Shown here piece by piece: positions 23,280 to 40,633 of a DNA stretch of 41,230 nucleotides (its first letter is position 1; each line of letters begins with the position of its first letter). Source of the DNA: a virus; the IMG/VR virus record IMGVR_UViG_3300033148_008287, positions 1 through 41,230 of that record; one strand, given 5' to 3'. The notes beneath the pieces were generated by a model, which did no database searches, was not told the origin of the DNA, and saw only the letters and a list, made by a program, of their open reading frames with translations. A program made the translations under genes and the position numbers.

Positions 23280-23615
23280 ATGGCAATCAAACGATATGAG
23301 AATACACATCCATTTGCCATTTTGACTGTTAATATTGGTGGTCTTGTACGCACAATCGCTCCCGGACAGCAAATTGATGGAGATGAGAATGTCCTAAAGC
23401 GCTATCCACAGCTTAAAGAGATAGGTACTATCTCTGATACAGGGGAGCACAGGCTTCCAAAGAAAAAGGGGTTTTTCGCGTCTCTCCCAACACATATGAT
23501 AATCAACTCCGAAGATGGAAACATTTTTGGAATGAATCGTGTCAATGATTATGAGCCCCCACACAGATGTAGAGCCGCCATTGCACCCAACACCGACTAT
23601 TGTTGCAAAAAGTAA
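23280..23615 (+). CDS. Small protein related to the one at 36544, possibly virion-associated
   Basis: 111 aa, not recognised by family. The N-terminal ~50 residues (MAIKRYENT...LVRTIAPGQQI) resemble the N-terminus at 36544 (MAVRFRNTLG...YVVPAYGSI) in start, spacing of hydrophobic strands and the following helix, so I think they share a small beta domain. Short phage proteins of this pattern are often structural, but that is an inference. The end (CRAAIAPNTDYCCKK) is Cys-rich and overlaps the glycosyltransferase gene. GAAAGGT precedes the ATG. First gene after nrdG, at the left edge of the glycan region. Confidence 0.65.
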   Translation: MAIKRYENTHPFAILTVNIGGLVRTIAPGQQIDGDENVLKRYPQLKEIGTISDTGEHRLPKKKGFFASLPTHMIINSEDGNIFGMNRVNDYEPPHRCRAAIAPNTDYCCKK

Positions 23616-25140
23616 GAAACAGAAAAAGGCAACATCAAATAAGTTTATTGTGCGTGATTATGTTGTGGGTGAAATGTCTGCTATTAAAGAAGAAGGCCGC
23701 AAGGTCTCAATTATTATTCTGACCAAAGACAATTATCCCTTCATTAGTAATTGTATTCGTCACATTAACAAGCATGTGCAATATCGCCCACTTGAAATTC
23801 TCATTGGCGACACCGGATCATCTGACCCAAAAGTGCTAGAATTCTATGATCTATTGGACCCAGACAAGGTGAAAATAGTTCGTGGGTTGACCTACAATTT
23901 TTCTGCTGCAAATAACAAATTGGCTGAACAGGCCACGGGTGGTTATTTGCTGTTTATGAATAATGACGTATACATGGAAAATGACTGCGTTAGTGCAGCA
24001 ATGCGCTATATTCAGACAAGTGCAATTGGTCAGGTTGGGATTCGGCTTGTGTACCCAAAAACTGGCAGGATCGATCATGATGGGCAGTTGTTGTATGATA
24101 CTATGTCAATTATTGGTCCAGGGCATGTGCATATCAACAAACACGCGAAATCGACCCCGGCAGTGGACGGGGATGTACAAGGAATTACCGGGGCTTGGTT
24201 GTTGATGCGCAAGAACTATTTTTTGGCTCGTGGTGGTTTTTCGACACAGTATAAAGACATCTACCAGGATTGTGATTTGTCCATGCGCAGCACGGCACAC
24301 GGCGAACGAAATTGGATATGCCAAACAAGCCATGCCATTCATGTTGGAAGTGGAACGAGAAAGGTGAGCAAGAAACCCATCGATGGTCATCATGATTTGG
24401 CAACACTCAAGAGCAAATGGTCAACAAAGATTCCAACTCTTGCTGCACCGAAGCATCCACGGCTTTCTATTGTGACTTGTTGTAATAATGTAGATTTGTA
24501 TAGGGATATGTTAAACAGTTTGCCCGAACACGCTACCCCAGAAGTTGAGTTAATTCCTATTTTCAACTTCGACAATTGGTTCAATATTCCACAAGCACTC
24601 AATCTTGGTATTAGCATGTCTCGGGGTGATTACGTCATGTTGAATCACCAGGATACGCTATTTGCAAAGGGATGGTATGAAGAAGCCATGGCTATTATGG
24701 ATGGGCTGAAAAATTTTGGTGTATTAGGAACTGAAGGAGTACGTAAATACAAAACGAGAGTGTCACCAAGATCATCAAAGAGGTTATCACCTGGTCACAT
24801 ATCAGAAGTGGACACAATAGATGAATTGTGTTTGCTTATTAAGGACAAAACCTTGCGGTTTGACGAAAACCTACAGTTCCATTTTTACGGGGCCGATATA
24901 TGCTTGAAAGCACAAGAGGCAGGCATGACCAACTATATCATTTCTCCAAATGTGACACATAGGTCAGGGGGTGGAGAGAATCTGCGGAGATTTCCGAAAA
25001 CGTTTATTCAGGATGCGCGTACTTTTTGGAGCAACTGGAGAAAACGCCGTAAGGGTGTTGTGACAACAACCACTGTTTTTTCACCATCCAGAATCCAATT
25101 TCTCATTCTTCCAAAACTTTTTCCTCCAATAAAGGTATAA
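23545..25140 (+). CDS. Tandem GT2 glycosyltransferase (two GT-A domains)
   Basis: About 531 aa. Domain 1 (~55-290) starts with VSIIILTKDNYPFISNCI and continues through ILIGDTGSSD, LAEQATGGYLLFMNNDVYM (DXD-type NND) and TGAWLLMRKNYFLARGGF, a full GT2 plan. Domain 2 (~305-500) begins LSIVTCCNNVDLYRDML and has SRGDYVMLNHQDTLFAKGWYEEA. Two-domain GT2 enzymes often add two sugars or alternate linkages. The end is basic. The start is uncertain among GTG 23539, ATG 23545 and ATG 23551. All overlap the previous gene by 65-77 nt, and the first ~40 residues are a Pro/Lys-rich linker. Confidence 0.85.
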   Translation: MIMSPHTDVEPPLHPTPTIVAKSKKQKKATSNKFIVRDYVVGEMSAIKEEGRKVSIIILTKDNYPFISNCIRHINKHVQYRPLEILIGDTGSSDPKVLEFYDLLDPDKVKIVRGLTYNFSAANNKLAEQATGGYLLFMNNDVYMENDCVSAAMRYIQTSAIGQVGIRLVYPKTGRIDHDGQLLYDTMSIIGPGHVHINKHAKSTPAVDGDVQGITGAWLLMRKNYFLARGGFSTQYKDIYQDCDLSMRSTAHGERNWICQTSHAIHVGSGTRKVSKKPIDGHHDLATLKSKWSTKIPTLAAPKHPRLSIVTCCNNVDLYRDMLNSLPEHATPEVELIPIFNFDNWFNIPQALNLGISMSRGDYVMLNHQDTLFAKGWYEEAMAIMDGLKNFGVLGTEGVRKYKTRVSPRSSKRLSPGHISEVDTIDELCLLIKDKTLRFDENLQFHFYGADICLKAQEAGMTNYIISPNVTHRSGGGENLRRFPKTFIQDARTFWSNWRKRRKGVVTTTTVFSPSRIQFLILPKLFPPIKV

Positions 25141-25143
25141 TAT

Positions 25144-25905
25144 ATGGCCAAAGAGAGAATCCATATTTTCATTCCTGTCTACTATAGAGAAAAAGTGGTC
25201 ATTGATGCTATTGATAGTATTCTGGCAACTTACGAATCCGCTGACTATGACGTGCGTATAATATTAATCAACAATGGCGCGGAACCTGGGTTGTTGCGCT
25301 ATATGACCGCCAATTCTATAATCAATCCCGATGTGGTGCTTGTTGATTATGGAAAAAATGAAGGGAAAACAAATGGTGTTAACAAAGCCTTTGAAATGTA
25401 TTCAGATTGCACGTGGGTCATTAGTTGTGATTCTGACATTTATCATTTAGAGGAAGGATGGCCGGGGAAGCTAGTTGATTGCTATAAAGCCCTTAAGCGG
25501 GTTGGTATGGTGTCCATAGCTTACACCAAAAACCACAGTCCAATGAATGAAGCTGCGCTTACCAACAGAGACCAGATTACGGTTAATGGGACTAAATATA
25601 GCTTTAAGTGGGGTAGGGGGGTTGCAGGGGGGTGTTTTGTCACTAGTGTCAACATGTGGAAAAAGATTGGTGGATATAAAGCGCCTGGGGTTTATGGCGG
25701 GGTTGATGGAACTTTTGTGCGGGAGGTAAATGCTGCTGGATTCAAATGTGGATATATTGAGCAGATACACGCAATCCACAAGGTCTCAACTGCTTACCCG
25801 AAATATATGGCCTGGAAAGCAAAGGTCCAAAACCAGATTCGTGCATCAAAGGGGCACGGGACGGCTTCCGACTTAGGCAATGAAAAGGGATATTGGGATG
25901 GGTAA
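25144..25905 (+). CDS. GT2 family glycosyltransferase
   Basis: 253 aa single GT-A domain. IHIFIPVYYREKVVIDAIDSIL is the N-terminal nucleotide-binding strand and helix. GKNEGKTNGVNKAFEM and WVISCDSDIYHL supply the DXD metal site (CDSD). GGCFVTSVNMWKKIGGYKAPGVYGGVDGTFVREVNAAG corresponds to the acceptor-side GGY...D segment that carries the catalytic base. No membrane helices, so soluble. AAAGGT before the ATG. Its end overlaps the next gene slightly. Sugar and acceptor unknown. Confidence 0.85.
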   Translation: MAKERIHIFIPVYYREKVVIDAIDSILATYESADYDVRIILINNGAEPGLLRYMTANSIINPDVVLVDYGKNEGKTNGVNKAFEMYSDCTWVISCDSDIYHLEEGWPGKLVDCYKALKRVGMVSIAYTKNHSPMNEAALTNRDQITVNGTKYSFKWGRGVAGGCFVTSVNMWKKIGGYKAPGVYGGVDGTFVREVNAAGFKCGYIEQIHAIHKVSTAYPKYMAWKAKVQNQIRASKGHGTASDLGNEKGYWDG

Positions 25906-26815
25906 GAAGAACTATTTACTAATTCATGGTGAGGGCATTGGGAATATCATTCAGATTTGTCCCCTATTAGCAACTCTACGTAGAGCAAAAATTGGGGTTG
26001 ATATAGCGATTTCTCATACAACTTATCCACTCCCAAAGGGGTTGTTTCGTGGTTTTCAATTTTGGCCATCAGTCAAAAAAGGACCAAAGGAGAAATGTGC
26101 TTCTTATACGGGAAAACTAGAAACTATTTGGGCACATCTTAATGAAGGCGTTCAACCAAGTGCCGTAAAGGCTCTCAAATGTTGTAATAACACTGCCAAC
26201 CAAATGATGCATGTATCACAATCGGAAGTCCAAACTTACTTGAAAATTGCCGCAGAACTTGGTGTTTCATCTACAAAATACGTTTATGATGTGAGAGATA
26301 TCCTTGGATATGACACGAGTGTTGATGAACACTTTGATGTTGTGATTGCAGATGGATACAATTACAAACATAAAGCGAAAAAATGGAAGATGAAATCCTA
26401 TCCCAATTACGAAGAAGTTGCACGACGTTTAGAGCGTGCGGGGTATACTGTGTGTAGTATTGGATCAGATAACGAATATGTAAACCGCACTACTCGCCGG
26501 ACAGGACTTCCGTTGTTGCAATCATTGGCCTTGGTGAGAAATGCGTCAGTTGTTTTGGCGAATGACACCGGGATGTATCATGCTGCGAGTGCTTTTCGTG
26601 TGCCTACATATGTGATGTTTACTTGTACGAGTCCATTGAAAAATTATGATCCACTGTACCACAAATCGGCTCATGTGTTACGCCTGAATTTGCCGTGTCA
26701 AGAAACATGCCAGCGCCAACTTAAATGGCAAAAATGTCAGCAGCCATCATGCAGACAATATTCTGCAAAGAAGGTGTTTGGTAAAATTGTTAAGGAACTT
26801 GAGCATGCAAAATAA
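25898..26815 (+). CDS. GT9 (heptosyltransferase-like) glycosyltransferase
   Basis: About 305 aa. LLIHGEGIGNIIQICPLLATLRR is the N-terminal glycine-rich loop of GT9. NASVVLANDTGMYHAASAFRVPTYVMFTCTSP is the donor-site signature (NDTGxxHxAxA) of lipopolysaccharide heptosyltransferases. LPCQETC...CQQPSC at the C-terminus is a Cys cluster like that seen in many GT9 proteins. ATG 25898 is taken because AAGGGA lies upstream. An ATG at 25880 is in frame. Overlaps the preceding stop and the DNA methyltransferase start. ADP-heptose is the usual donor, but no heptose pathway gene is visible here. Confidence 0.83.
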   Translation: MGKKNYLLIHGEGIGNIIQICPLLATLRRAKIGVDIAISHTTYPLPKGLFRGFQFWPSVKKGPKEKCASYTGKLETIWAHLNEGVQPSAVKALKCCNNTANQMMHVSQSEVQTYLKIAAELGVSSTKYVYDVRDILGYDTSVDEHFDVVIADGYNYKHKAKKWKMKSYPNYEEVARRLERAGYTVCSIGSDNEYVNRTTRRTGLPLLQSLALVRNASVVLANDTGMYHAASAFRVPTYVMFTCTSPLKNYDPLYHKSAHVLRLNLPCQETCQRQLKWQKCQQPSCRQYSAKKVFGKIVKELEHAK

Positions 26816-27779
26816 TGATGGTAGTTACAGAATCCTTAATGGGGATGCAATGGACCTGATTCCCACTCTTGTCCCAAATTCTATTCAGACTGTCATTACA
26901 TCTCCGCCGTATTGGCAAGCAAGAAAATATGATGGCAACACAAAGACTAATTTTGGTGCGTGTCTTGGAGAGGAATTTTCACCAGAGGCGTATGTTGAGC
27001 ATGTGGTTACTATCTTAGATGAAGTGCGGCATGTGTTGCGTCCAGACGGAACTATGTGGGTAAATATTGGTGATAAGTACGCTACCACAAAATTTAATTC
27101 ATGGGGAATCAAACCAAAGGATTTGATGGGGCTTCCATGGCGCATTGCCATGAAATTACAGCATCTAGGTTGGTATCTGCGTTCTGATGTTATCTGGTCA
27201 AAACCGAACCCACAACCATCCTCAGCAAAGGACCGCCCGCTGCTTTCACATGAACATCTTTTCATGTTTTCTGTTTCTGGTCACTACTATTACGATTTTG
27301 ATGCTGTTTCTATCCCTGTTGTGTGTACAAACCGAGCTTGGAGCAAGAATAACAAATCAAGGCGCAAAAATAGAAGTTCAAATAGTTTTTCTATTGATTG
27401 CGCCCGCCAAGAGGCTGCATACCAACGCCAACGATCACTAATGAGACAAGGCAAAATCCCACAGAAGGGAATTAACAGTGTGTGGAGAGTACCTACATCC
27501 CAATCACGTGACTATCACTTTGCCACATACCCACAGAAGCTCATTAGACCATGCGTATTGGCCTGTAGCGGCAAAGAAGCTCCACACAACGTGGTATTAG
27601 ACCCGTTTATGGGAAGTGGCACTACCGGCGTTCTGGCTGTGTCTGAGGGAAGGCAGTTTATTGGGATTGATATGTCTGCACTATACTGCAAAATGGCAAA
27701 GGTCAAAATTGCTAATCAAGCAAAAAATTACCATGATACGATTCAATCTAATCAAGCCCTAAAGACCCTTTTCATATGA
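26805..27779 (+). CDS. DNA methyltransferase, TSPPYW type (N4-cytosine or N6-adenine)
   Basis: 324 aa, beta-class arrangement: the catalytic motif TSPPYW (residues 32-37) comes first and the SAM motif DPFMGSGTTGVLA (from 266) last. An SPPYW motif with that order is commonest in N4-cytosine methyltransferases, though N6-adenine enzymes also occur. The HEHLFMFSVSGHYYYDFDAVSIP segment is typical of the family. No restriction enzyme gene is adjacent, so it is an orphan that probably shields phage DNA from host restriction or marks it. AAGGAA lies 7 nt before ATG 26805. It is placed inside the glycan gene run, coupled to GT genes at both ends. Confidence 0.88.
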   Translation: MQNNDGSYRILNGDAMDLIPTLVPNSIQTVITSPPYWQARKYDGNTKTNFGACLGEEFSPEAYVEHVVTILDEVRHVLRPDGTMWVNIGDKYATTKFNSWGIKPKDLMGLPWRIAMKLQHLGWYLRSDVIWSKPNPQPSSAKDRPLLSHEHLFMFSVSGHYYYDFDAVSIPVVCTNRAWSKNNKSRRKNRSSNSFSIDCARQEAAYQRQRSLMRQGKIPQKGINSVWRVPTSQSRDYHFATYPQKLIRPCVLACSGKEAPHNVVLDPFMGSGTTGVLAVSEGRQFIGIDMSALYCKMAKVKIANQAKNYHDTIQSNQALKTLFI

Positions 27780-28507
27780 ATAGAGACCAGATTGATATCA
27801 CTATGCCAGCAACCTTGAGACCAGGCATTTTTGAACGAACCCTTACGTCTTTCTGTAAAAAGATGTTCACTGACCGGGATAGGTACCGGTTAATCCTGAA
27901 TGTTGACCCGATTGGAGAGTCGGACTGCAAACCAAAACACATTATTAAAATTGCGAAGCGGTTTTTCCCTACGGTTGTGGCGCATGTACCGAAACAACCA
28001 TCATTCCCAACAGCTTTTATTTGGTGTTGGAAACAGGCATTCAATGACTGTGTGTTTCACATGAACGAGGATTGGGTATTAACTCGCCCAGTTGACATAG
28101 ATACTGTTATTGATCTATTAGAAGCTAACCCACATGTAGCAAATATGCGTTTTCCAAAGATGGATATCCCGGCGAACCTGGTTATCTTTAATTGCCAGTA
28201 TGTGGTGAAAAAGGGGTATTTGCAGGCAACTCGGAGAAATAATCAGTTTGGCACAAATCCGTCTTTATTGCGGGGAGAATTTGTGTATGCTACGCGGGAC
28301 AGGATGATTCCGACAAAAAATCCAGAGAAACAGTTTCGGCCAAGCTGCCCTGATGTTTTTGAGATAGTTGACCAATGGGATTATGCTATTTATGCTAAAC
28401 CAAAGCAAAAGGCTTTGATTAAGGATATTGGACGGGCATGGATGAATGACCATGGATTTACAAAAGGCGATGACGGGGCGCAATTCACTGTATGGAAAAA
28501 AAACTAA
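27776..28507 (+). CDS. GT-A-like glycosyltransferase, paralogue of 33298
   Basis: 243 aa. IDITMPATLRPGIFERTLTSFC opens a GT-A-like fold. FHMNEDWVLT carries a probable metal-binding NED in place of DXD. The end IKDIGRAWMNDHGFTKG is shared with the protein at 33298 (IKDLGNEWRTKMGLSKG), as are the LRGEFV and RFPK stretches, so the two arose by duplication. ATG overlaps the methyltransferase stop as ATGA. I cannot place it in a numbered GT family. Confidence 0.7.
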   Translation: MNRDQIDITMPATLRPGIFERTLTSFCKKMFTDRDRYRLILNVDPIGESDCKPKHIIKIAKRFFPTVVAHVPKQPSFPTAFIWCWKQAFNDCVFHMNEDWVLTRPVDIDTVIDLLEANPHVANMRFPKMDIPANLVIFNCQYVVKKGYLQATRRNNQFGTNPSLLRGEFVYATRDRMIPTKNPEKQFRPSCPDVFEIVDQWDYAIYAKPKQKALIKDIGRAWMNDHGFTKGDDGAQFTVWKKN

Positions 28508-28517
28508 AGGAAATACA

Positions 28518-29675
28518 ATGCAAGATACTAGACCAAAAGAGTATCATTACTGGGACCAATTGATGCAACATCTTGGTGGTGATACAAAGATTTTTGATGC
28601 GCATGGGGGCGAATTCGTTTATCCACGCCAGTTTGAGATTCATTTGCCTGGAAACCACAAAATTCCTTGCATGTTGCATTGCCCTCATTGTGCGGGAAAG
28701 CTGTTTGATAAATCGCTTGGAACTTGGGAAATGACGGGGCTTGAACTCTTGGATAAATTAAAAGGTGCAATTCCATATCACATTTATGGGGGGGCATACA
28801 CGGAGCCGATACTGAATCCATACTTCATGACATTCCTGAATATGACCAAGAAATACGGGAACCATTTTGGTATTCATACGAATGGTGTGTATCTAAAGCA
28901 ACTCGAAAACATGCAAGGATGGCTCACAGAGCTTAATCGTATTTCCTCAGATAGTGTTGATTACTTATCCGTGTCATTGGACGCCGGGTTCCCCTGGTCG
29001 TGGGCAAAAACCAAGGGCACAAAACACCAAGAGTGGTATAATGATGTCATTGAAGGTATTAGAATGGCGGTGAATATCCGAAGGAGAGTTGGGCTTGGAC
29101 ATGCTATTCGCTTGTGTTATTTGATTAGCCCACATAGTGGAACGGATGAAAACTTTGGTGCTATTGTTCAAACGGCACGTGACATTGGAGTTGATTCGTT
29201 GCGTTTTTCTATCCCCTTTGCGTGTTACAATCAGGAGTTTGATGAGGTACGCAAATACAAGGCGGGAGTTGAACAACCACTAGGCGACTTGTATGAGCAA
29301 ATGTTATCCCCTTATCTGTCAACCGACAAAGGGGAAAGACCTTACATATTCTACACTGGACCAGAATTCACCGACATCGATAAATTCACATTCAATCGCT
29401 GCCTTTATGGATATTATCAAATCACTTTTGGTGCCGATGGGTATATCTATCGGTGTTCAACCACAGCAACACCGACAGCGAAACAGTGTAGATTAGGAAA
29501 AATAACAAGCAATGTAAACACGTTCGAACAAGCTATTATTCGGAATCATGATAGGAACTGGGATTGCCAAAAGCATTGTTTTGCCAATGGTGTTCGGTGT
29601 AACCGAATGGGACTTGAAATCAATACTGCATATGCGAAGCTTCATGTTCATGAAAATGAGAATCTTCATACCTGA
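28518..29675 (+). CDS. Radical SAM enzyme with C-terminal SPASM/twitch-like cysteines
   Basis: 385 aa from ATG 28518 (AAAGGAAA upstream; the frame is open to 28446). CMLHCPHC gives CxxxCxxC at C51, C55 and C58. YGGAYTEPILNPYF takes the place of the GGEP SAM-binding motif, reading G-A-Y-T-E-P. HTNGVYL and SVSLDAG are the next conserved strands. The C-terminal part has RCLYGY...DGYIYRC and CQKHCFANGVRC, resembling auxiliary iron-sulfur cluster binding as in SPASM proteins. Such enzymes modify peptides, sugars or tRNA. In this setting a sugar epimerase or dehydratase acting on a nucleotide sugar or glycan is one option. The substrate is unknown. Confidence 0.8.
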   Translation: MQDTRPKEYHYWDQLMQHLGGDTKIFDAHGGEFVYPRQFEIHLPGNHKIPCMLHCPHCAGKLFDKSLGTWEMTGLELLDKLKGAIPYHIYGGAYTEPILNPYFMTFLNMTKKYGNHFGIHTNGVYLKQLENMQGWLTELNRISSDSVDYLSVSLDAGFPWSWAKTKGTKHQEWYNDVIEGIRMAVNIRRRVGLGHAIRLCYLISPHSGTDENFGAIVQTARDIGVDSLRFSIPFACYNQEFDEVRKYKAGVEQPLGDLYEQMLSPYLSTDKGERPYIFYTGPEFTDIDKFTFNRCLYGYYQITFGADGYIYRCSTTATPTAKQCRLGKITSNVNTFEQAIIRNHDRNWDCQKHCFANGVRCNRMGLEINTAYAKLHVHENENLHT

Positions 29676-30600
29676 AAAATGGGTTGATAAGCAAATTGTT
29701 ATGTACCGCTATGTACAGTTATTTCAATTGTGCGCGGCCAAAGAACAAGCCGTTATAGAGATTTCAGATACAATTGATCCTAACATTATTGATGAAAAGA
29801 TTGTGTTAGTTTTTAAGGCACCACAAAGCAATGCGTGTAAGCTTTTAGCTGGAGCAGCGGAACTCCCGCCAGAAAAAACACTCATTGTCTACGTAGCTGA
29901 CTGCCATGATCATCACCAAAACAACACACAGCCGGTTGCAGAGACAAGTGATTATGGAAAGGCTATGCGCGCAATGTTAGACAGGGCAAATGTGGTATTA
30001 AGCCCATACCCACATTCTTTTAAGCAACTGTGGCCACAGTATATTGACAAGTTGGTGCCATTTTACCATTTTGTTGTAGAAGGGCACTTGCCGGAATATG
30101 ATGAAGATGTGTTTGGTGATAGGGAGCGGAAAGTTTTGTTGGCTGGTCGGGTTTCCTATACCTATCCGTTACGGATGTGGTTATTCAAGAATCGAAAGAG
30201 AGAATCGATTTCCTATCTGCATCATCCAGGTTACAATTATGTAGCAACAAATGCTATTATTGATGATCGTTTTATGGCTCACATCAGTAAGCACATGGGC
30301 GCATTTGCCACTTCTTCTCACTATAAATACTTGTCTGCCAAGTATTTGGAGATTCCGGCAACGGGGACGTGTATGTTTGCAGAGCAAATTCCTGAATTGA
30401 ATGTAATTGGGATGGTGCCAATGATACACTATATTCCAATTACGAAAGACAATGTATTTGATGTATTGGAGTGGGCATTGAACGACACAATCTTTATGCA
30501 AAAAATTGGTCATAGAGGACGGCAATTTGTGCTTGAAAACTTCACGATGCAGGCACGATACAACCAACTCATGACCATTGTGAAATGTGCCATTCCTTAG
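29650..30600 (+). CDS. GT-B glycosyltransferase (CgeB/GT1_2-like C-terminus)
   Basis: 316 aa from ATG 29650, or 314 from ATG 29656; the longer frame from 29548 would overlap the radical SAM gene by over 120 nt. VLLAGRVSYTYPLRMWLFKNR starts the C-terminal nucleotide-binding half. YKYLSAKYLEIPATGTCMFAEQIPEL then DVLEWALND...IGHRGRQFVLENFTMQARYNQL matches the end of GT-B transferases of the CgeB/Glyco_trans_1_2 type (E contacts the sugar donor, and the GRxFVLENFT...R helix closes the fold). Soluble, no signal. Confidence 0.72.
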   Translation: MKMRIFIPEKWVDKQIVMYRYVQLFQLCAAKEQAVIEISDTIDPNIIDEKIVLVFKAPQSNACKLLAGAAELPPEKTLIVYVADCHDHHQNNTQPVAETSDYGKAMRAMLDRANVVLSPYPHSFKQLWPQYIDKLVPFYHFVVEGHLPEYDEDVFGDRERKVLLAGRVSYTYPLRMWLFKNRKRESISYLHHPGYNYVATNAIIDDRFMAHISKHMGAFATSSHYKYLSAKYLEIPATGTCMFAEQIPELNVIGMVPMIHYIPITKDNVFDVLEWALNDTIFMQKIGHRGRQFVLENFTMQARYNQLMTIVKCAIP

Positions 30601-30618
30601 AGATAGAGGATAACCATA

Positions 30619-32370: not shown

Positions 32371-33301
32371 ATACTCACACATTAACGATTGTGAAGATAT
32401 GTGGACACAGCTTTTCTATTATACAACCAGGAAACTACATGGCCATGGTCTGCAATTGTATCATGGCCATGGACATAAGGTGTTAATTTCCGCGCATTTT
32501 ACAGATAAGGCGGTTGATTTATCCACCTACATGCCCAAATGGACACCGGACCTTATTTTGTGTAGAGGCGGCTTTGATTACTATGACACATTTTTGCGTC
32601 GTTATCCACAAACACCAAAAGTGTACTATGGTGCGGGCACGCGGATTTATCCAACAAGCTCGTATACAGACTATGCCTGTTTTCTGGTAGACACAGATGC
32701 GCAGCGGGACATGGTGCGCAGCAAAACCCATGCTAAAGTTTCCAAAATAATCAAGCCAGCGGCAACGTTGTTTGCTCCTGTCTATGGAACTGAAAAAACA
32801 TATGATGTTGCATTTATGGCAAATGCTGCACAGTACAAGCTTAAGCGGCACGAATTTTTTCTGAGGGCCATGGCTGGGCGCGGATTGTCGATTTTGATGA
32901 TCGGCAACAAGAGAAAGAACATTTGTGATTTGGCCACATCCCTTGGGCTTGACGTGACGTGGGCGGGTTGGCATTTGCGTAAGGATTTACCAGCACTGTT
33001 GTCAAGTTGTAAAATGGGAGCAATTTGCACAACAAGTCGGGATTCGTGCCCTCGTGTGATACCGGAATATTTGGCATGTGGGTTGCCTTTTGTTGCTACA
33101 AAAAACATGAATTTTGACCATAAGAGGTACACAAATGGTGGTCTTGGTGGTATAATAGTTGATGAAAAGGTTTTTGGGGGGGCTGTGGCCGAAGTAGCGG
33201 CCTCTTACACAACGTATAGGCCCTATCATACCTATACGGAAAAGTTGGCTATGCCGGTCGCTGTGCGCCGTCTAGTGAAGATACTGAAAGGAATCTTATG
33301 A
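32306..33301 (+). CDS. GT-B glycosyltransferase
   Basis: 331 aa from ATG 32306, preceded by GGAGAGAG (the longer frame from 32147 lies wholly within the oxidoreductase gene). The C-terminal domain carries YDVAFMANAAQYKLKRHEFFLRAM, CKMGAICTTSRDSCPRVIPEYLACGLPFVATKN (donor-site glutamate followed by CGLPFVAT), typical of GT4-like enzymes. A His/Gly-rich HGHGLQLYHGHGHK (around 45-58) is coded by a repeated 11-bp CATGGCCATGG (32438-32448 and 32462-32472). Stop overlaps the next ATG as ATGA. Confidence 0.8.
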   Translation: MLKIVFLRGSVPPLSEHIEKLRYSHINDCEDMWTQLFYYTTRKLHGHGLQLYHGHGHKVLISAHFTDKAVDLSTYMPKWTPDLILCRGGFDYYDTFLRRYPQTPKVYYGAGTRIYPTSSYTDYACFLVDTDAQRDMVRSKTHAKVSKIIKPAATLFAPVYGTEKTYDVAFMANAAQYKLKRHEFFLRAMAGRGLSILMIGNKRKNICDLATSLGLDVTWAGWHLRKDLPALLSSCKMGAICTTSRDSCPRVIPEYLACGLPFVATKNMNFDHKRYTNGGLGGIIVDEKVFGGAVAEVAASYTTYRPYHTYTEKLAMPVAVRRLVKILKGIL

Positions 33302-34047
33302 TTGACATTGTCATGACGGCTACGTTAAGGCCGGATATTCTCCGTAAGACACTAAACTCATTTTGTGAAAATCTCTTTGTTGATCAGAATCGATTTCGGC
33401 TATTACTCAATATTGATTTGGCTGGTGATAAAGGCATAAATCCATTTGATGTGTTGGATGTGGCCGCGAGTTTTTTCCCAAAAGTTGTGTATCGGTTTGT
33501 GAAAGCGCCGTCATTTCCCTTGGCAATACGCTGGGGCTGGTCGATGGTTGAATCAGAATTCTTGTTTCATATTGAAGATGACTGGCTTATGACACGCTCT
33601 GAAAGTGTCGATAACATGGTTGGTGTTATGCGTAAACACCCGACCCTTTGTGCAATGCGATTTCCAAAATTTGGTCTTCACAAGAACGAGTTTGTCTATG
33701 GCAAGCCGCGTTGTAACTGGACGTATGATAATGGGGTATATATTGCTGAGAATAGAAAGACCATGTTTTCGTTCAATCCATGTATTGTGCGTGGGGAGTT
33801 TGTTGCTCAGATTTGGCCGTATATAGTTGACGGAAAGGACCCAGAATATCAATTACGGTATGAGCATGCTGTGCCTGAGATACAGGCTACGATTGACAAA
33901 TTTGACAAAGGCATTTATGGGGACCCAGATACACCACCATTGATAAAGGATTTGGGTAATGAATGGCGAACAAAAATGGGCCTAAGTAAGGGCGAAGATC
34001 GATTTGGCCGTAGCCCTAATTTTACTACATGGAGCAAAGAAATATGA
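33298..34047 (+). CDS. GT-A-like glycosyltransferase, paralogue of 27776
   Basis: 249 aa. It shares with the protein at 27776 the opening DIVMTATLRPDILRKTLNSFC, a FPxxxxxxxKxPSFPxAIRW region, the metal motif FHIEDDWLMTR (EDD in place of DXD), MRFPKF, a VRGEFV segment and the end LIKDLGNEWRTKMGLSKG. Here the metal motif is closer to a standard DXD. Function by similarity of fold: sugar transfer to an unknown acceptor. ATGA overlaps at the start and at the end. Confidence 0.73.
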   Translation: MIDIVMTATLRPDILRKTLNSFCENLFVDQNRFRLLLNIDLAGDKGINPFDVLDVAASFFPKVVYRFVKAPSFPLAIRWGWSMVESEFLFHIEDDWLMTRSESVDNMVGVMRKHPTLCAMRFPKFGLHKNEFVYGKPRCNWTYDNGVYIAENRKTMFSFNPCIVRGEFVAQIWPYIVDGKDPEYQLRYEHAVPEIQATIDKFDKGIYGDPDTPPLIKDLGNEWRTKMGLSKGEDRFGRSPNFTTWSKEI

Positions 34048-34253
34048 AACGTCCACAGCGAAAAACCAATATCAGAGTTGTGTTTCCTGGCAGAGTTAAC
34101 AGAAAGCTCATTATAAACAGGATGGTTAGTGCTTTGCAATTTAATGGGTATATGCAATTAGCTCATGAGTGGATGAACACAGCACGGCAAATCACAGATA
34201 CGAAAACATTGTTGGAAATAGCTAAAACCTTTGCTATGGTGGAAAAAAGATGA
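34044..34253 (+). CDS. Small basic protein, 69 aa
   Basis: Not recognised. ATG 34044 overlaps the upstream TGA. Strongly basic at the N-terminus (KRPQRKTNIRVVFPGRVNRK), then two amphipathic helices (LIINRMVSALQFNGYMQLAHEWMNTA, AKTFAMVEKR region). Ends in ATGA with the next glycosyltransferase. Too small to be an enzyme alone. It could be an accessory subunit, but that is a guess. Confidence 0.65.
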   Translation: MKRPQRKTNIRVVFPGRVNRKLIINRMVSALQFNGYMQLAHEWMNTARQITDTKTLLEIAKTFAMVEKR

Positions 34254-35227
34254 AAATTGCGTTTAATGGTGTTGGTTGTGGATGGGGAAACAACGGGGGA
34301 ACGCAAAGTCTTTTTCGCATGGCGATTGCTCTATCTGCAATTGGTCATGAAGTTGAAGTTTGGTCTGACTCCGGTAACCAATTCACTTGGTTTGATCTTC
34401 CGTCAAAATACGTGAAGTATCGAAAAACGACTCTGAAAAAGGCTCCGGCAGTTGATGTTCTTATTGCTAGTGGTGCAGCAACGGTGAATAGCACCTTCCA
34501 TTACCCAAGGAAACGCATTGGAGTCAATTGGGTTCGTGCTATTGAAACATGGACTATGTCAAAAAAGAAGTTGTTTGCACAATACGCGCTGCCAATGCCA
34601 TTATGGGTAAACTCGGAGTGGATGCGGAATTACATATCCAATACCATTGGTAGGAACGACATTTCCGTAATTTACCCAGGAATACCATTTGAGCAGTTTT
34701 ATCTTGTTGCCCCAAAGTCAATGACTTTTACGATTGGGTATCTGTATAGCAAAAAGGCTCGCAAGCGTTGGGATTGGTGTGTAGCTATTCAAAAAGCGTT
34801 TCCACAGTGCCGTCACTTTGTGTTTGGAAACGCCAAAGAAAATTCTGATGATCTTCACGTGGATCGATATTTGTGTCGTCCGTCATACAAAGCAAAACGA
34901 AACTTGTATTCACAGTGCCATGTGTGGTTTGCGCCGACGGATAGTGAAGGGTTACATATCCCACCGATGGAAGCCGCATTGTGTGGGGCAACTGTTGTTG
35001 GGAATGCTATGCACAGTGCAGGATTGGAGGATACATGTATTCACAAGGAAACTGCACTGATGTTCAAAACGAAAAAGACTGCCTGTTCTAATATTAAGCA
35101 TTTAATGGCCAATCCAACAGAACGCAAGGAACTCAATGCGCGCCACGTGAAGGTGATTCGTGAAAAAATCGGGTCTGTTAGGGATAATGCACTAATAGTA
35201 GAACGCACGTTAAAAGAGTATCTATGA
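34250..35227 (+). CDS. GT4-type glycosyltransferase
   Basis: 325 aa. MKIAFNGVGCGWGNNGGTQSLFRMAIALSAIGHEVEVWS is the GT4 acceptor-domain start, with a Gly-rich loop and the helix that follows. VNWVRAIETWTM and VIYPGIPFEQF mark the domain junction. The donor site is WFAPTDSEGLHIPPMEAALCGATVVGN, matching the EGxxxPxxEAxxxG signature with the catalytic-side glutamates. No membrane segment. ATGA overlap with the small gene before. Confidence 0.86.
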   Translation: MKIAFNGVGCGWGNNGGTQSLFRMAIALSAIGHEVEVWSDSGNQFTWFDLPSKYVKYRKTTLKKAPAVDVLIASGAATVNSTFHYPRKRIGVNWVRAIETWTMSKKKLFAQYALPMPLWVNSEWMRNYISNTIGRNDISVIYPGIPFEQFYLVAPKSMTFTIGYLYSKKARKRWDWCVAIQKAFPQCRHFVFGNAKENSDDLHVDRYLCRPSYKAKRNLYSQCHVWFAPTDSEGLHIPPMEAALCGATVVGNAMHSAGLEDTCIHKETALMFKTKKTACSNIKHLMANPTERKELNARHVKVIREKIGSVRDNALIVERTLKEYL

Positions 35228-35266
35228 CAATAGGCATATGTCATATCTTTTTGGGGGGACACACTT

Positions 35267-36109
35267 ATGACAACTAAGAAGATTGTTGGTGTGATACTTG
35301 CAGGTGGGACTGGATCGCGTTTATGGCCATTAACACAAACGATCAATAAGCATTTGTTGCCAGTTGGTCCAATCCCGATGATCTATCATTGTCTTTACAA
35401 GTTTTTGGAAGTGGGTATTGAGGATGTCATTATTGTGTCTGGCAAAGAACACTTAGGTCAACTCACTACACAACTTGGCAGTGGGGCAGACTTCAAGATG
35501 AATTTGGTGTATAGGGTGCAGGATCGTGCTGGTGGTATTGCTGAGGCACTATTGTTGTGTGAAAATGTTGTGTCTTCTGATACCCATCTTTGTGTGCTTT
35601 TAGGAGATAATGTTTTCACAACAAGTCTCCAACCCCATATCAGCAATTACCAACAATTATCAGATGATTGTTGCCAAGTTTTGCTTTATGATGTGAGTGA
35701 CCCAGAACGGTTTGGAGTCGCTGAGTGTGGTGATAACAATCGCGTTACAATGATTGTTGAAAAACCGGACAATCCGACGTCGAATACCATTGTTGTTGGT
35801 GTGTATTTTTACCCACCTGGGGTTTTTGATTTGCTGCACACGTTAACTCCGTCAGCACGCGGCGAGCTTGAAATCACCGATCTAAATATGATGTACACGC
35901 CGTTACATTGTGCGTATTCTATGTTACAGGGTTTTTGGTCAGATGCAGGTCAGTATGTGTCTTACTACAAAACCAATCGTTTTGTGTGGGAGAATTTGCG
36001 CCATTTTTCTTACTTAAAGGACTCTAATTCACTGTTATGGCATACCCAAAGCCTAAACTCTACAATCCAAGCCATCCAGAAAAGTACAACGGAACTCTCC
36101 CAATTGTAA
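35267..36109 (+). CDS. rmlA: Glucose-1-phosphate thymidylyltransferase-like (RmlA)
   Basis: 280 aa nucleotidyltransferase making dTDP-glucose from dTTP and glucose-1-phosphate. GVILAGGTGSRLWPLT (8-23) is the nucleotide-binding loop with R18. K28 is in INKHLLPV and D114 in LLGDNVF is the metal ligand. VEKPDNPTSNTIVVGVYFYPP and RGELEITDLN are the sugar-binding segments of RmlA. A few residues shorter than E. coli RmlA (293 aa), missing part of the C-terminal helix set. It feeds the dehydratase at 5645. The end overlaps gene 4 by 73 nt. A G-rich ribosome site (GGGGGGAC) precedes the ATG. Confidence 0.88.
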   Translation: MTTKKIVGVILAGGTGSRLWPLTQTINKHLLPVGPIPMIYHCLYKFLEVGIEDVIIVSGKEHLGQLTTQLGSGADFKMNLVYRVQDRAGGIAEALLLCENVVSSDTHLCVLLGDNVFTTSLQPHISNYQQLSDDCCQVLLYDVSDPERFGVAECGDNNRVTMIVEKPDNPTSNTIVVGVYFYPPGVFDLLHTLTPSARGELEITDLNMMYTPLHCAYSMLQGFWSDAGQYVSYYKTNRFVWENLRHFSYLKDSNSLLWHTQSLNSTIQAIQKSTTELSQL

Positions 36110-36495
36110 TGCGGAGTAATTTGGAAAAGAAGGCGTTTAGGATGTTTGATTTGAGTTCGGCGGTTGTGTGTTGGGGCAGTGAGAGTTTGGTTATTGAGTA
36201 TTTCAACCCGGTAGATGGGCGAATGCATCGCTATTTTCCTGATCTAATTGTCAGGTACACAACAGAAGATGGGGATAAAATAGCAATTATTGAAATCAAG
36301 CCGTACAAACAAACACAGAAACCAGAACGGGGTCGAATGCGTGTAAAAACATATATGCGTGAAGTGCAAACTTATATCACAAATATGGCAAAATGGAATG
36401 CTGCTGCGCGCTGGTGCGAAAAACAAAATCGTACAAAAGGTGGTCCCATTTGTGAGTTTAGGCTCATGACAGAAAAACAGTTAGGAACTAAATAG
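36037..36495 (+). CDS. 4: T4 gp4-like head completion nuclease
   Basis: 152 aa, the size of T4 gp4 (150). gp4 finishes the DNA-filled head before tail joining and has a TnsA-like PD-(D/E)XK nuclease core. NPEKYNG-type start (NPSHPEKYNGTLPIVMRSNLEKKAF), WGSESLVIEYFNPVDGRMHRYFPDLIV (the D of the active site) and AIIEIKPYKQTQ (ExK) match the family from end to end, which supports the early start at 36037 despite a 73-nt overlap with rmlA. Its presence inside the glycan region ties that region to virion assembly genes. Confidence 0.88.
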   Translation: MAYPKPKLYNPSHPEKYNGTLPIVMRSNLEKKAFRMFDLSSAVVCWGSESLVIEYFNPVDGRMHRYFPDLIVRYTTEDGDKIAIIEIKPYKQTQKPERGRMRVKTYMREVQTYITNMAKWNAAARWCEKQNRTKGGPICEFRLMTEKQLGTK

Positions 36496-36516
36496 TAGTA
36501 GTTAGCTGTTCAATTC

Positions 36517-36524: not shown

Positions 36525-36543
36525 GTTCGAAAGGAAATTAATT

Positions 36544-37143
36544 ATGGCTGTTAGATTTCGAAACACATTGGGTAGTATCGTGACATTGATTGTGCATGAT
36601 AAGAGATATGTTGTTCCTGCATATGGATCAATTGTTGCTAATAATCCTGGGGCAGAGCAGGCTTTGCGTGGATATACATTTTTGCAGAGTGAGGGTGAGG
36701 TTGACTTGTCACAACCATCAATGACACCACAACAAGCTAGTTCTCCGCCGGTTCAACGACAGGTTGAACAACTACAGCAACCAGCCATTACTCCACCAAG
36801 GCGGACACAAATAGAGATTCAGAATGGTCCTGGATTTTTCATAGATGATGAATCACGTGGCAATCCACGGGCACAAGATGTACCTCAGGAGATTCGCGAA
36901 CAAGCACCACCAATGACCACAGCGCCACCTATTGAATCCTATAGTGGTGTAGAACGCGATTTGATTGAACAAATGATCTGGGACCCAGGAACGGGAGCAG
37001 TCGATTTTGGTAAGATTGATATGCGAAAAGTTAAGAAGGCCGAAATTGTCTTCTTGCTTGATCAAATCGGACTTCCATATACAGAAAAGGACACTTACGC
37101 GGATTTGAAAGCATATCTCAAATCCATTAAGGAAGAACAGTAA
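36544..37143 (+). CDS. Modular protein: small N-terminal domain, Pro/Gln linker, HeH domain
   Basis: 199 aa. Residues 1-50 form a small beta domain like that of the protein at 23280 (MAVRFRNTLG, YVVPAYGSI). Residues ~56-135 are a Pro/Gln/Thr-rich linker (PSMTPQQASSPPVQ and more). Residues ~160-194 (VKKAEIVFLLDQIGLPYTEKDTYADLKAYL) fit a HeH/SAP-like helix-extended-loop-helix motif, often nucleic acid binding. AAAGGAAA precedes the ATG. A virion or head-linked protein is plausible because gene 4 is next to it. The Thr/Pro linker could be a glycosylation target, which is speculative. Confidence 0.7.
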   Translation: MAVRFRNTLGSIVTLIVHDKRYVVPAYGSIVANNPGAEQALRGYTFLQSEGEVDLSQPSMTPQQASSPPVQRQVEQLQQPAITPPRRTQIEIQNGPGFFIDDESRGNPRAQDVPQEIREQAPPMTTAPPIESYSGVERDLIEQMIWDPGTGAVDFGKIDMRKVKKAEIVFLLDQIGLPYTEKDTYADLKAYLKSIKEEQ

Positions 37144-37222
37144 AAATTGATTTGATGGCTGTTTTGGTGTCTGTTATTTTAGTGTATATGCAACAAACTA
37201 CTTTAGATACACAAGGGACACC

Positions 37223-37948
37223 ATGATAAACAGAGAATTTGCAAACAGTAACCCAGCTATCTACTCCATTGATATTGACGGCACAATGGAATTTGGGATG
37301 CCAAGTGGACCTATTCATTCACTTCTAATAAAGCAATTGCACGAAGCGGGACATTATATTATTGGTGGATCAGATAGATCGGAGGATTTCACCTATGCCA
37401 TATTCAATATTAAATGTGGTGTTCGTTTGGATGGGTGGACAGGAAAAGAAGTGAGGCGCTTACTCATGTATCGCATGCGGTTTCGTGATGCAAAAAACTA
37501 CATTCATGTTGGGGATTCGATGAATGATGCGTATGCAGCAAAAGCATCCGGCTACCATCACATGTTGCCACAAGAATTCATACGACATGCGGCAGCGGGG
37601 TTCCCGCAGTATAAGGCACCACTGCCAATTCCGCCCAAAGGGTCTGTCGAACGACCTAGTTGGAGAATGCAGGAACTTCCGTTTGGTTCAACAGAAGATG
37701 ATCTTGATGATATGCCGTGGTGGCGTAATATAGACCCAGATGATGTTGCATTCAACAAGCGTAAAGTCGATGTCACACAGGGAAAGAACTATATCCTTAA
37801 TCAAGCAACAGGAGAGTTCTTAGACATGGATAGTCCAGAGGGCAAAGCCTATGCGGCATATACGCGCGCTCAACAACGAAAACGGAGAGACATTTTGAAT
37901 CATATTAATGATATGAAACGTGCCAATTGGGAAAAAATGATGAAATAA
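37223..37948 (+). CDS. HAD-superfamily phosphatase with charged C-terminal extension
   Basis: 241 aa. Residues 1-115 are a small HAD fold: DIDGT (D17, D19; nucleophile and acid/base), GGSDRSEDF as motif II, TGKEVRR with the motif III lysine, and HVGDSMNDAYAAKASG (G97, D98, D102) as motif IV. No large cap is present, so it may act on a bulky or polymer-bound phosphate, for example a sugar phosphate or nucleotide. Residues ~120-241 are a Pro-rich then strongly charged region with no recognised domain. AAGGGAC precedes the ATG. Not a glycosyltransferase itself, but fits a sugar-phosphate pathway. Confidence 0.8.
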   Translation: MINREFANSNPAIYSIDIDGTMEFGMPSGPIHSLLIKQLHEAGHYIIGGSDRSEDFTYAIFNIKCGVRLDGWTGKEVRRLLMYRMRFRDAKNYIHVGDSMNDAYAAKASGYHHMLPQEFIRHAAAGFPQYKAPLPIPPKGSVERPSWRMQELPFGSTEDDLDDMPWWRNIDPDDVAFNKRKVDVTQGKNYILNQATGEFLDMDSPEGKAYAAYTRAQQRKRRDILNHINDMKRANWEKMMK

Positions 37949-37984
37949 GTAGGTATTGTACAACATAATACAGAAAGGAAGTGA

Positions 37985-39712
37985 ATGATGGCAAATGACA
38001 CTGTTTGTCGTTTGATGAGTGGTACTTACACTCTGTGTGATACATATGCAAAATTCATTACACGAGTTTTCAATAACCAAGAAATTTTTGGAGTTGTGGT
38101 GGGCTGGGGTGGGGATGGTAAGGATTTGTCCTATCTGGTTTCAAAGGTTGGTAATATTCGGCGCGTGTACTATATTGACACGTGGCCATTTGATAACGCA
38201 ACTGCTATAGCACAGTTCATGATCAATATTAAGGTGATACGTGATCGGGTCGTTATTCTTAATAAGCCAATTTATTGCGCTAGATTTGATACATCACCCA
38301 ATACATTTAGTTTTTGTATCATCAACTTGCCGGAGAATCGTGTAGAGGAAGATGAAATTGCTATTGTTTTGGATTCTGTGGCCCATCACTTGTCTCATTT
38401 TGGTACTCGTCCACAATGTCTTTGTATGGTGTCGATTCCGTCTGAATCCCCTGCTTTGATGAAATGGGGACGCGAGCATTTAACCAACATCCATGAAGAT
38501 GTGACTACAATGAATTCTGCGTATAGCATTGTATCTGGATTTTATGAGACCGGAACAGAAAAAGGCACAGACATACAAGACCCAGAATCTCCACCAGTAA
38601 TATCTAAGGACGATGACACACACGTTCAACTTGCTGAATTCACCACAATTAATGATAAAGTTGGGGTAAGTGCATCGGTTGATGCAAGCAAACGAGTTTT
38701 GTGGATTTGCAATGGTGGTATTGGTGATGGTGTAATGATGGCATCAGCCATTAATGCACTTGCCAATGTTGGGTCCATTCCATTGCATGTCGATTTCTGG
38801 CCAATGCGAAAGGCGGCCAAAGCCATTGGTGAACTCATTGGTAAGATTCCAAATGTAAACTGTCTTGATGAAAAACCCGTTGGGGAAACCTATTTCGCTG
38901 CTTGTTGTGATACTCGCTCATCGGCTCTGGAGGAACGCGCAAAGGGTATTAACTGTGAGTATCGTATCAATCCACGTAGATGGTCTGGTGGCCCTGTGCA
39001 GTGGGCAAGAAGCATTGTGGATCAGGTCACCGAGAAGGCTATGGAAAAGTGGTCACCTAACACTATGAGTGATGGTGATTGGAAAAAGCAGTTGAGCAGC
39101 GACATTGACAAGCGTCGTAATTCAATGAAGAAACCGCCACTAGTTTCTTTGTTGCCAACCCGATTTCCGAATTATGTTGTAATTGGCACGGGGGTTGGTG
39201 GTAACGAAAAGAATGCCAAGAAGATGTGGTGTTCAGATTGTTGGCGTAAATTAACAGGTGTGATGCCGAAAGAAACGATTGTATTTGTTGGGGATTCTTC
39301 TGCCGCAGTCCCATCATTTGCAAAATGCCCGGCTTGTGGGCATGATACACTTCGATCTGAGCAAATCCAATTTAGTGGGATAAAGGAAATGTGTACCAAG
39401 GTTTCATGCACAGCGTGTGAGTGGTCAATTGTAGATTTGACAGGCAAAACACCGACCTTAATGGATTTGGTACCGGTGTTTATGAATACAAAATTGTATA
39501 TTGGGGTGGATAATGGGATTGGGCATATGGCGTCTGGTCTTGGATTACCAACAATTACCCTTTTTGGCCCAACAAATCCAAACCGGTATCTTCCAGCATC
39601 CCATAATTCAATTGGTTTGGCGGGCGAAAATGGCGCTATGCCAAATGTGCAGGTTGTTGCTAATACTGTCCTTGATTTCTTGAAGCCACTGAACGAAGAA
39701 GGGAACGCATGA
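37985..39712 (+). CDS. Two-domain protein: methyltransferase-like N-terminus plus GT9 with inserted zinc ribbon
   Basis: 575 aa. Residues ~34-190 look like a Rossmann methyltransferase-type fold (FGVVVGWGGDGKDLSYLV, then VYYIDTWPFDNAT), but no clear SAM motif order, so function is open. A linker follows (~190-235). Residues 237-570 are a GT9 transferase: VLWICNGGIGDGVMMASAINAL is the Gly-rich loop, and YIGVDNGIGHMASGLGLPTITLFGPTNP is the donor signature. Between the GT9 halves, residues ~446-482 hold C448/C451 and C475/C478 in CxxC pairs, a zinc-ribbon insert. AAAGGAAG precedes ATG 37985; a second ATG follows at 37988. Confidence 0.8.
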   Translation: MMANDTVCRLMSGTYTLCDTYAKFITRVFNNQEIFGVVVGWGGDGKDLSYLVSKVGNIRRVYYIDTWPFDNATAIAQFMINIKVIRDRVVILNKPIYCARFDTSPNTFSFCIINLPENRVEEDEIAIVLDSVAHHLSHFGTRPQCLCMVSIPSESPALMKWGREHLTNIHEDVTTMNSAYSIVSGFYETGTEKGTDIQDPESPPVISKDDDTHVQLAEFTTINDKVGVSASVDASKRVLWICNGGIGDGVMMASAINALANVGSIPLHVDFWPMRKAAKAIGELIGKIPNVNCLDEKPVGETYFAACCDTRSSALEERAKGINCEYRINPRRWSGGPVQWARSIVDQVTEKAMEKWSPNTMSDGDWKKQLSSDIDKRRNSMKKPPLVSLLPTRFPNYVVIGTGVGGNEKNAKKMWCSDCWRKLTGVMPKETIVFVGDSSAAVPSFAKCPACGHDTLRSEQIQFSGIKEMCTKVSCTACEWSIVDLTGKTPTLMDLVPVFMNTKLYIGVDNGIGHMASGLGLPTITLFGPTNPNRYLPASHNSIGLAGENGAMPNVQVVANTVLDFLKPLNEEGNA

Positions 39713-39718
39713 ATACAA

Positions 39719-40633
39719 ATGATTACACCATCAGTTACTGCAATTATGACGACACATAATGAAGGACAAGAGGTGTTGTGGACAATTGAAAATCTACGCT
39801 TAAACAGTTCTGGACTCAAACTCCAAATAATTGTCACAGATGATGCATCCACTGACCATAGCTGTGATAATCTTCCGCCTGATGTGCTTGTATTGCGTAA
39901 CGAAACCCGCAAGGGGGTTGCTCCTGGCCGAAACTTGGCAGCAAAACATGCAATTGGGGATGTGCTGGTGATGCTTGATGCCCATATGCGTGTATCACCT
40001 GACTGCCTTGCGTACATTAGCACGGTTGCTATGGAGAAAGGTGGGGTTGTCTTAGGTCAAATCAAAAATCTTTACGGTTCTGATCGCGTTTTTGGACGGC
40101 AAAAGTTGGCTATAGACAACGGTGAACGTAACCGTCTTGTGTCTGAATGGGAAAAAGTGCCTGTAAAAAATGAGTATGAGTCTGTCACTGGGTTTATTGC
40201 ACCAGGATATGGCATTCCACGAAAGGTTTTTGAACAACTTGGTGGTTGGCCATCAGCAGCCTCTGGTTGGGGGCAAACAGAAATTGCCCTGAGCCTCAAG
40301 TGTGCTATTTCCGGCACACCAATTTACATTGTGCGAGACCATATCTTCTGGCATATGTTCAAGAGTTCATTCAACTATTCCATGCATCCCCGGTTTCCCT
40401 TGTCAAACAACTATATCATGTGTAGGATGTGTTTTGACGAGAGTTTTGAGCAATTCTGGTTGCCGCTGATGAAACGGCACAGATACTTTAATGACACATG
40501 TGCTATTTGGTCGGATGCATTAGAAGTTGAACGAGAAGCGTTTCAAGCTAATCGAAAGATTTCTGATGATGAGTTTTTTGCAACTGTCCTTGATACAACG
40601 ATTGAGGAAGCAGTTGCAGAGTACTTGGTTTGA
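39719..40633 (+). CDS. GT2 family glycosyltransferase, polypeptide GalNAc-transferase-like
   Basis: 304 aa. SVTAIMTTHNEGQEVLWTIENL and IIVTDDASTDHS are the GT2 N-terminal motifs. LDAHMRVSP supplies a DXH metal site, the form used by polypeptide N-acetylgalactosaminyltransferases. GGWPSAASGWGQTEIALSLKCAISG...HIFWHMFK resembles the catalytic loop and HxFR region of that group, so transfer to a protein acceptor is possible. The ATG follows the previous TGA by 6 nt. Last gene before the terminator at 40691. Confidence 0.83.
   Translation: MITPSVTAIMTTHNEGQEVLWTIENLRLNSSGLKLQIIVTDDASTDHSCDNLPPDVLVLRNETRKGVAPGRNLAAKHAIGDVLVMLDAHMRVSPDCLAYISTVAMEKGGVVLGQIKNLYGSDRVFGRQKLAIDNGERNRLVSEWEKVPVKNEYESVTGFIAPGYGIPRKVFEQLGGWPSAASGWGQTEIALSLKCAISGTPIYIVRDHIFWHMFKSSFNYSMHPRFPLSNNYIMCRMCFDESFEQFWLPLMKRHRYFNDTCAIWSDALEVEREAFQANRKISDDEFFATVLDTTIEEAVAEYLV

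Follow-up and report, generated by a model that had tools for sequence, protein, structure and literature searches.

A phage-encoded cluster of many glycosyltransferases in a genome fragment from a divergent T4-like phage lineage

Dense runs of glycosyltransferase (GT) genes have been described in several groups of large phages. The function of the glycan clusters (labelled 'LPS', for lipopolysaccharide) of the T4-like cyanophages P-SSM2, S-SSM7 and S-SM2 was stated to be unknown (PMC3037559), and the role of such clusters in large T4-like phages has been left open since those genomes. A review of jumbo phages reads such GT clusters as surface-polysaccharide systems (PMC7824862), and a paper on moraphages, which have four core GT orthogroups, discusses virion, DNA and serotype roles alike and cites mycobacteriophages as the precedent for virion glycosylation by phage GTs, the proposed mechanism being that these decorate a capsid or tail protein (PMC12619734). 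Here we describe a cluster in IMG/VR record IMGVR_UViG_3300033148_008287, which is the entire 41,230-base viral metagenome sequence (hereafter the window) and a 41-kb fragment of a larger genome. Ten GTs are encoded in one run and an eleventh lies between the DNA polymerase operon and gp55, and their Pfam matches and intact motifs give good support to a phage-encoded, multi-transferase oligosaccharide pathway, as had been proposed from an initial inspection of the letters alone (the sequence-only reading). This kind of cluster is already known; what is new here is the different set of GT families, the dTDP-sugar supply and the embedding of one GT in the replication core.

The ten GT proteins of positions 23280-40633 comprise a tandem GT2, two GT2, two GT9, three GT-B and two GT-A paralogues, the number and composition given by the sequence-only reading. 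Eight of the ten are supported by Pfam; the two GT-A paralogues, which match no Pfam family, are supported by their 37% identity to each other and by a GT-A structural model. Several open reading frame (ORF) starts as first listed lie too far upstream, and likelier starts are given where they could be placed. The GTs are as follows:
23539..25140, plus strand: tandem GT2 with two GT-A domains (PF00535 at residues 57-226, PF13712 at residues 310-469); the true start is probably downstream
25144..25905, plus strand: GT2 (PF00535, E 5e-12), with a homologue in the related contig G008
25880..26815, plus strand: GT9 of the heptosyltransferase family (PF01075, E 8e-12; TIGR02195, E 2.6e-9, below cut-off; motif DTGxxHxA)
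27776..28507, plus strand: GT-A-fold GT, first paralogue (37% identity to 33298-34047; motif FH[IM]x[DE]DW in the family alignment)
29548..30600, plus strand: GT-B, GT90/GT1-like, a weak assignment (PF05686, E 1.4e-5, barely above cut-off; PF13524); true start about 29659
32306..33301, plus strand: GT-B of GT4 type (PF13692, E 1.6e-9); the ORF opens at 32147, with a likelier start at ~32306
33298..34047, plus strand: GT-A-fold GT, second paralogue (AlphaFold2 model; family members in other viral contigs)
34250..35227, plus strand: GT4-like GT-B (PF00534 slightly below and PF13524 slightly above cut-off; PHROG 2170; homologues in loci L146 and L195)
37985..39712, plus strand: GT9 with an extra N-terminal region of ~230 residues (C-terminal PF01075, E 4e-13; motif DNGxxHxA)
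39719..40633, plus strand: GT2 (PF00535, E 3e-19)

None of the GTs of the window has a credible membrane span by hydropathy, which is a crude test. Apparent spans in 32147-33301 and in the methyltransferase at 30619-31239 were not counted, because in the former the hydrophobic stretch belongs to an upstream extension that precedes the likely start and in the latter it falls in the S-adenosylmethionine (SAM)-binding motif. All of the motifs that were checked in the cluster proteins are intact, and the GC content at third codon positions (GC3) is 0.399 in the cluster versus 0.398 in the core (replication) genes, with a codon correlation of 0.90. Since GC3 and codon usage agree with those of the core genes, a long residence of the cluster genes in the phage genome is suggested. 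A degenerate cluster, one of the outcomes that the sequence-only reading took as refuting its proposal, is ruled out together with a freshly captured one by the intact motifs and the matching GC3 and codon usage. In tblastn searches of 50,697 phage records there was no match for either GT9, the GT90-like protein or the GT at 34250; no close relative of the GT9 fusion (37985-39712) came up in pattern searches, and a sequence search of the PDB found no match for two of the GT-B proteins.

Accessory genes reported by the sequence-only reading among the GTs (RmlA, Gfo/Idh, radical SAM, methyltransferase and HAD) were recovered by Pfam, weakly for radical SAM, and by motifs, the motif being the sole match for HAD. 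RmlB and the additional GT-B gene also lie across the divergent region as described, and are identified by TIGR01181 and PHROG 7162. A DNA methyltransferase is an addition to that earlier gene list. These features, with the other genes of the run, are:
5645..6739, minus strand: RmlB, dTDP-glucose 4,6-dehydratase (TIGR01181, E 2e-49, below cut-off; TGxxGFIG, DEVYG, YAASK; homologues in the clade)
6752..7903, minus strand: clade-core GT-B, the eleventh GT (PHROG 7162, E 3e-34), between the polymerase operon and gp55
23280..23615, plus strand: small protein, no Pfam or PHROGs match
26778..27779, plus strand: DNA N6/N4 methyltransferase (PF01555, E 2e-45; SPPY, DPFxGSG)
28446..29675, plus strand: radical SAM protein (PF04055, E 3e-5, below cut-off; intact CxxxCxxC)
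30619..31239, plus strand: SAM-dependent methyltransferase (PF13489, E 6e-17)
31243..32370, plus strand: Gfo/Idh/MocA oxidoreductase (PF01408, E 6e-12; GxGxxG, EKP)
34029..34253, plus strand: small ORF, an open frame overlapping its neighbours
35267..36109, plus strand: RmlA, glucose-1-phosphate thymidylyltransferase (PF00483, E 1e-53; TIGR01208, E 5e-58, below cut-off; GTGSRL, EKP)
36037..36495, plus strand: gp4 head-completion protein (PHROG 218, head closure, E 7e-42)
36544..37143, plus strand: small protein, no Pfam or PHROGs match
37223..37948, plus strand: HAD-like protein (DIDGT, a DxDGT motif, only; no family match)

RmlA and RmlB together yield dTDP-4-keto-6-deoxyglucose; RmlC and RmlD were not seen in the record, which is a fragment. 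In the pathway that we propose, the phage RmlA and RmlB would produce this intermediate, which may be converted to a finished deoxysugar by the Gfo/Idh oxidoreductase or by host enzymes, and the remaining donors would be supplied by the host, possibly including ADP-heptose for the two GT9 enzymes. About eleven soluble GTs would build the chain sugar by sugar on a cytosolic acceptor, a methyltransferase may cap the finished chain, and the likeliest acceptor would be a virion protein produced late in infection. By Pfam and hydropathy the cluster encodes no flippase, polymerase, ligase, phosphoglycosyl transferase or Gtr membrane protein, and this lack of any membrane-export protein leans against a surface conversion of the Gtr or Wzx/Wzy type.

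Although the sequence-only reading had the run start at 23280, the probable transcription unit begins at about 20622, upstream of NrdD and NrdG. Its limits and first genes are:
20622..20632, plus strand: promoter-like element TGTGGTATAAT with an extended -10, in the 187-bp gap 5' of NrdD
20678..22699, plus strand: NrdD, anaerobic ribonucleotide reductase (PHROG 25611, E 3e-94), the proposed first gene of the unit and outside the glycan pathway
22587..23273, plus strand: NrdG-like radical SAM activase (TIGR02495, E 2e-21, below cut-off; CxxxCxxC); the true start is within the ORF
40690..40717, plus strand: intrinsic terminator with a 12-pair stem and a T-run, the strongest terminator-like site in 22-41 kb

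There are four exact copies of the 11-mer TGTGGTATAAT in the window, at 7941(+), 7971(-), 8778(-) and 20622(+), and only seven in 194 other loci totalling 2.6 Mb. Three of the four are in the gaps ahead of gp55, of the GT-B/RmlB/polymerase operon and of NrdD; the fourth is inside gp47, on the minus strand at 8778. From this placement the element is a putative promoter, and the cluster would share its promoter class with the replication genes. The terminator is the first strong one after the NrdD copy and lies just beyond the last GT, and because the two elements bracket the run, it is probably one transcription unit of ~20 kb, from 20622 to 40717. T4-type late promoters were also sought, but TATAAATA was found twice versus 2.04 times expected by chance and TAAATA was below chance, and this gave no evidence of late control. 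Between the gp55 and polymerase operons, at 7941-7981, two of the TGTGGTATAAT copies point away from each other and together make up an inverted repeat.

Part of the glycan gene set is conserved in the clade. Full-length relatives of the window polymerase that are syntenic with the window were found at loci L038 and L107 (both of contig G006), L039, L109 and L114 (of contig G008, 331 kb), with gene calls in these relatives made mechanically. A homologue of the GT-B at 6752 adjoins the polymerase in L038/L107, L039, L109 and L114 (25-38% identity in L038, L039, L109 and L114), and gp55 adjoins that homologue in L038, L107, L039 and L114. In G008 a homologue of the tandem GT2 (32% over 470 aa) adjoins UvsW, and the contig also encodes a GT2 like that at 25144, RmlB and RmlA; G006 encodes RmlB together with a protein homologous (33%) to the second half of the tandem GT2. 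As these two contigs share only part of the glycan genes of the window, the pathway looks like a lineage-core module joined to a variable island. A structural model of the GT-B at 6752 has a GT4-like fold closest to MshA/BshA, at low confidence (predicted local distance difference test score, pLDDT, of 65), and because of its poor quality was used for fold class only. It is conceivable, if rather unlikely, that in a lineage of distant T4-like phages the GT-B at 6752, set between the DNA polymerase and the late sigma factor gp55, works with the tandem GT2 and RmlA/RmlB as a core pathway. Its product would be a complex glycan, possibly with heptose, that belongs integrally to the virion or the genome and to which swappable GTs add further sugars.

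The paralogues at 27776-28507 and 33298-34047, which match no PHROGs family either, belong to a coherent family whose alignment has invariant R, T-L-S, F-H and D-W residues. The AlphaFold2 model of 33298-34047 (mean pLDDT 86.7) has a GT-A fold, and its best PDB match is SpsA with dTDP (E 1.8e-9, template modelling score 0.54), a nearest structure that agrees with a phage-made dTDP-sugar. Members of the family occur in at least 45 other viral contigs, most of the sampled ones having several GT2 and GT1 genes clustered nearby, and the window case thereby defines a GT-A family common to these contigs. No phage record was returned by tblastn with the 33298 paralogue. The bacterial relatives are from alphaproteobacterial genomes, where they are often near multi-span membrane proteins.

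Among described systems, the cyanophage P-SSM2 resembles the window in its T4-like core genome and in a dense run of GTs of several families and sugar-nucleotide enzymes (12 kb, at 193.4-205.5 kb) with no multi-span protein. The P-SSM2 cluster, however, encodes a GDP-mannose dehydratase, epimerases and annotated GT1/2/6/11/25, whereas the window has RmlA/RmlB, GT9, GT90-like, GT4 and the GT-A family that lacks a Pfam model. The window GTs tested by tblastn matched neither P-SSM2 nor any other cyanophage, and for the GT-B at 6752 there was no such phage among the matches listed. Contig G016 (IMGVR_UViG_3300024259_002152, 350 kb), in which no polymerase homologue was found, has two adjacent members of the GT-A family with many other GTs and methyltransferases, but its cluster is larger, ~50 kb (about 151-200 kb; loci L220-L222), and by eye includes sialic-acid-like and GDP-deoxysugar-like genes. 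The statement of the sequence-only reading that no phage pathway of this composition had been described therefore holds for the exact gene set only, given the G016 cluster, the comparably large GT clusters reported for cyanophages and for jumbo phages (PMC3037559, PMC7824862) and the core GT orthogroups of moraphages (PMC12619734). Moraphages and the ERM huge phages resemble the window, by description rather than by sequence, as large aquatic phages with core GTs alongside a family B polymerase, a sigma factor and UvsW (PMC12619734). The Phapecoctavirus coliphages phAPEC8 and vB_EcoM_3A1_SA_NWU have a dTDP-sugar operon and a GT block that includes a homologue of the GT-B at 6752; they differ in having complete RmlABCD and only four GTs in the block and in belonging to a different phage subfamily, and in phAPEC8 no annotated GT lies within 9 kb of the RmlABCD operon. 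Virion glycosylation in mycobacteriophages involves few GTs, in contrast to the ten or more of the window, for which there is no identified acceptor. The window is also unlike Gtr and Wzx/Wzy systems, as Pfam and hydropathy found no GtrA/GtrC, Wzx, Wzy or other multi-span protein in the cluster, and unlike T-even DNA glucosylation, as there is no T4-type alpha- or beta-glucosyltransferase among the GT matches.

We favor cytosolic assembly of an oligosaccharide, with NrdD/NrdG co-transcribed and a virion protein as the most likely acceptor, at somewhat less than an even chance; the LPS core is our second choice of acceptor and DNA our third. The virion target put forward in the sequence-only reading is compatible with the data, but the support that it drew from neighboring genes finds little backing: gp4 is indeed in the run, yet none of 30 other gp4 loci holds a homologue of any other window protein and gp4 is apart from the GT genes in G008 and P-SSM2, so gp4 adjacency was dropped as an argument; the two small proteins called possibly structural (23280-23615 and 36544-37143) have no family match and are not similar to each other, so that label is unsupported. 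Several further points weigh against a virion acceptor. No glycosylated protein was identified, the small proteins of the run have no assignable role, and the promoter-like TGTGGTATAAT also stands before early/replication operons and differs from the T4 late promoter. Proteins with at least four hydrophobic segments are absent from the clusters of the window, P-SSM2 and G016 and from 45 phage GT-A loci, whereas bacterial loci that carry this GT-A family have 11 among 266 ORFs; phage loci, however, are generally poor in multi-span proteins (6 of 1154 ORFs), so the lack of an exporter is weak evidence and merely leans towards a cytosolic acceptor. LPS cores are built by GT9, GT4 and GT2 families, and the set of GT9 (heptosyltransferase II-like), GT4 and GT2 enzymes in the cluster resembles such a pathway. 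Somewhat unlikely, in our judgment, is a remodelling of the host surface. In this reading the soluble GTs would lengthen or change the LPS or lipooligosaccharide core on the cytosolic side of the cytoplasmic membrane, and its export by the host would exclude superinfecting phages or keep progeny from re-adsorbing. The jumbo-phage review proposes diversification of outer polysaccharides for such clusters (PMC7824862), and the multi-span membrane proteins near the alphaproteobacterial relatives of the GT-A paralogues point the same way. Set against this are the missing export, polymerization and ligation genes, the absence of any identified integrase within the window and the view of the authors of PMC11990801 that complete surface modification is futile in a lytic infection.

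It appears improbable that the phage DNA carries a modified base to which some, or all, of the GTs attach sugar as protection from restriction. In favor of this target, the clade-core GT adjoins the DNA polymerase and gp55, and G008 encodes, close to a canonical ThyA, a second thymidylate-synthase-like protein, which leaves room for modified DNA; distant relatives of the same GT-B lie beside primase and polymerase in Phapecoctavirus coliphages, and the window itself encodes a dCMP deaminase and a DNA methyltransferase. The G008 protein (L134:8324-9220) is TysY-like only below cut-off and is possibly a base hydroxymethylase. Against it, no scanned GT matched the T4 alpha- or beta-glucosyltransferase, the window and G006, both of them fragments, lack a gene of the thymidylate-synthase family, the model of the GT-B at 6752 is nearest, at low confidence, to MshA/BshA, and ten different GTs exceed the needs of known base glycosylation. 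Quite improbable, finally, is a mosaic island in which the lineage-core GT module (6752, tandem GT2, RmlA/RmlB) serves one target and the swappable GTs, acquired singly, have other or no essential targets. Its attraction is that G006 and G008 have only part of the gene set, that single members recur in unrelated contigs (34250-like and GT-A genes in L146 and L195, 32147-like and GT-A genes in L148), that four of the GTs went unmatched in the phage records and that stuffer DNA was raised as a possibility for cyanophage clusters (PMC3037559); the tight packing of the genes in one run, their uniform codon usage and their intact motifs argue otherwise. The window sets a candidate lineage-core module apart from a variable island, and virion, DNA and surface targets are distinguishable in the cultured E. 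coli phages that carry a related GT and a dTDP-sugar operon.

The remaining genes of the record are those of a T4-like phage, with homologues of the polymerase, gp55, gp47, gp46, UvsY, UvsW and gp4 among its replication and head genes. They are arranged as follows:
left end of the record: UvsX, identified by eye
minus strand, after UvsX at the left end: dCMP deaminase, family B polymerase, RmlB and GT-B
rightwards from 8.0 kb: gp55, gp47, gp46, UvsY, UvsW, RuvC-like resolvase and NrdD/NrdG

The window polymerase has at most ~31% identity to those of annotated phages, the top matches being Pelagibacter phage HTVC008M and cyanophages, and on this comparison we place the source phage in a large, divergent T4-like lineage. 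The presence of the anaerobic reductase NrdD with its activase (20678-23273) suggests that the host grows without oxygen. Locus L195 (DAOVGR010000028.1), binned as a Thermoplasmatales archaeon, has a glycan cluster of phage-like type with GT9, GT4, GT-A and methyltransferase genes, including relatives of the GTs at 34250 and 33298, and is possibly a mis-binned phage. The protein at 15771-16679 is unusual within the window: it begins like a lipoprotein and has four hydrophobic segments. The final 370 bases (40861-41230) are 61% GC versus 42% across the record and contain an open frame with no PHROGs match; this segment may be an assembly chimera or a foreign gene.

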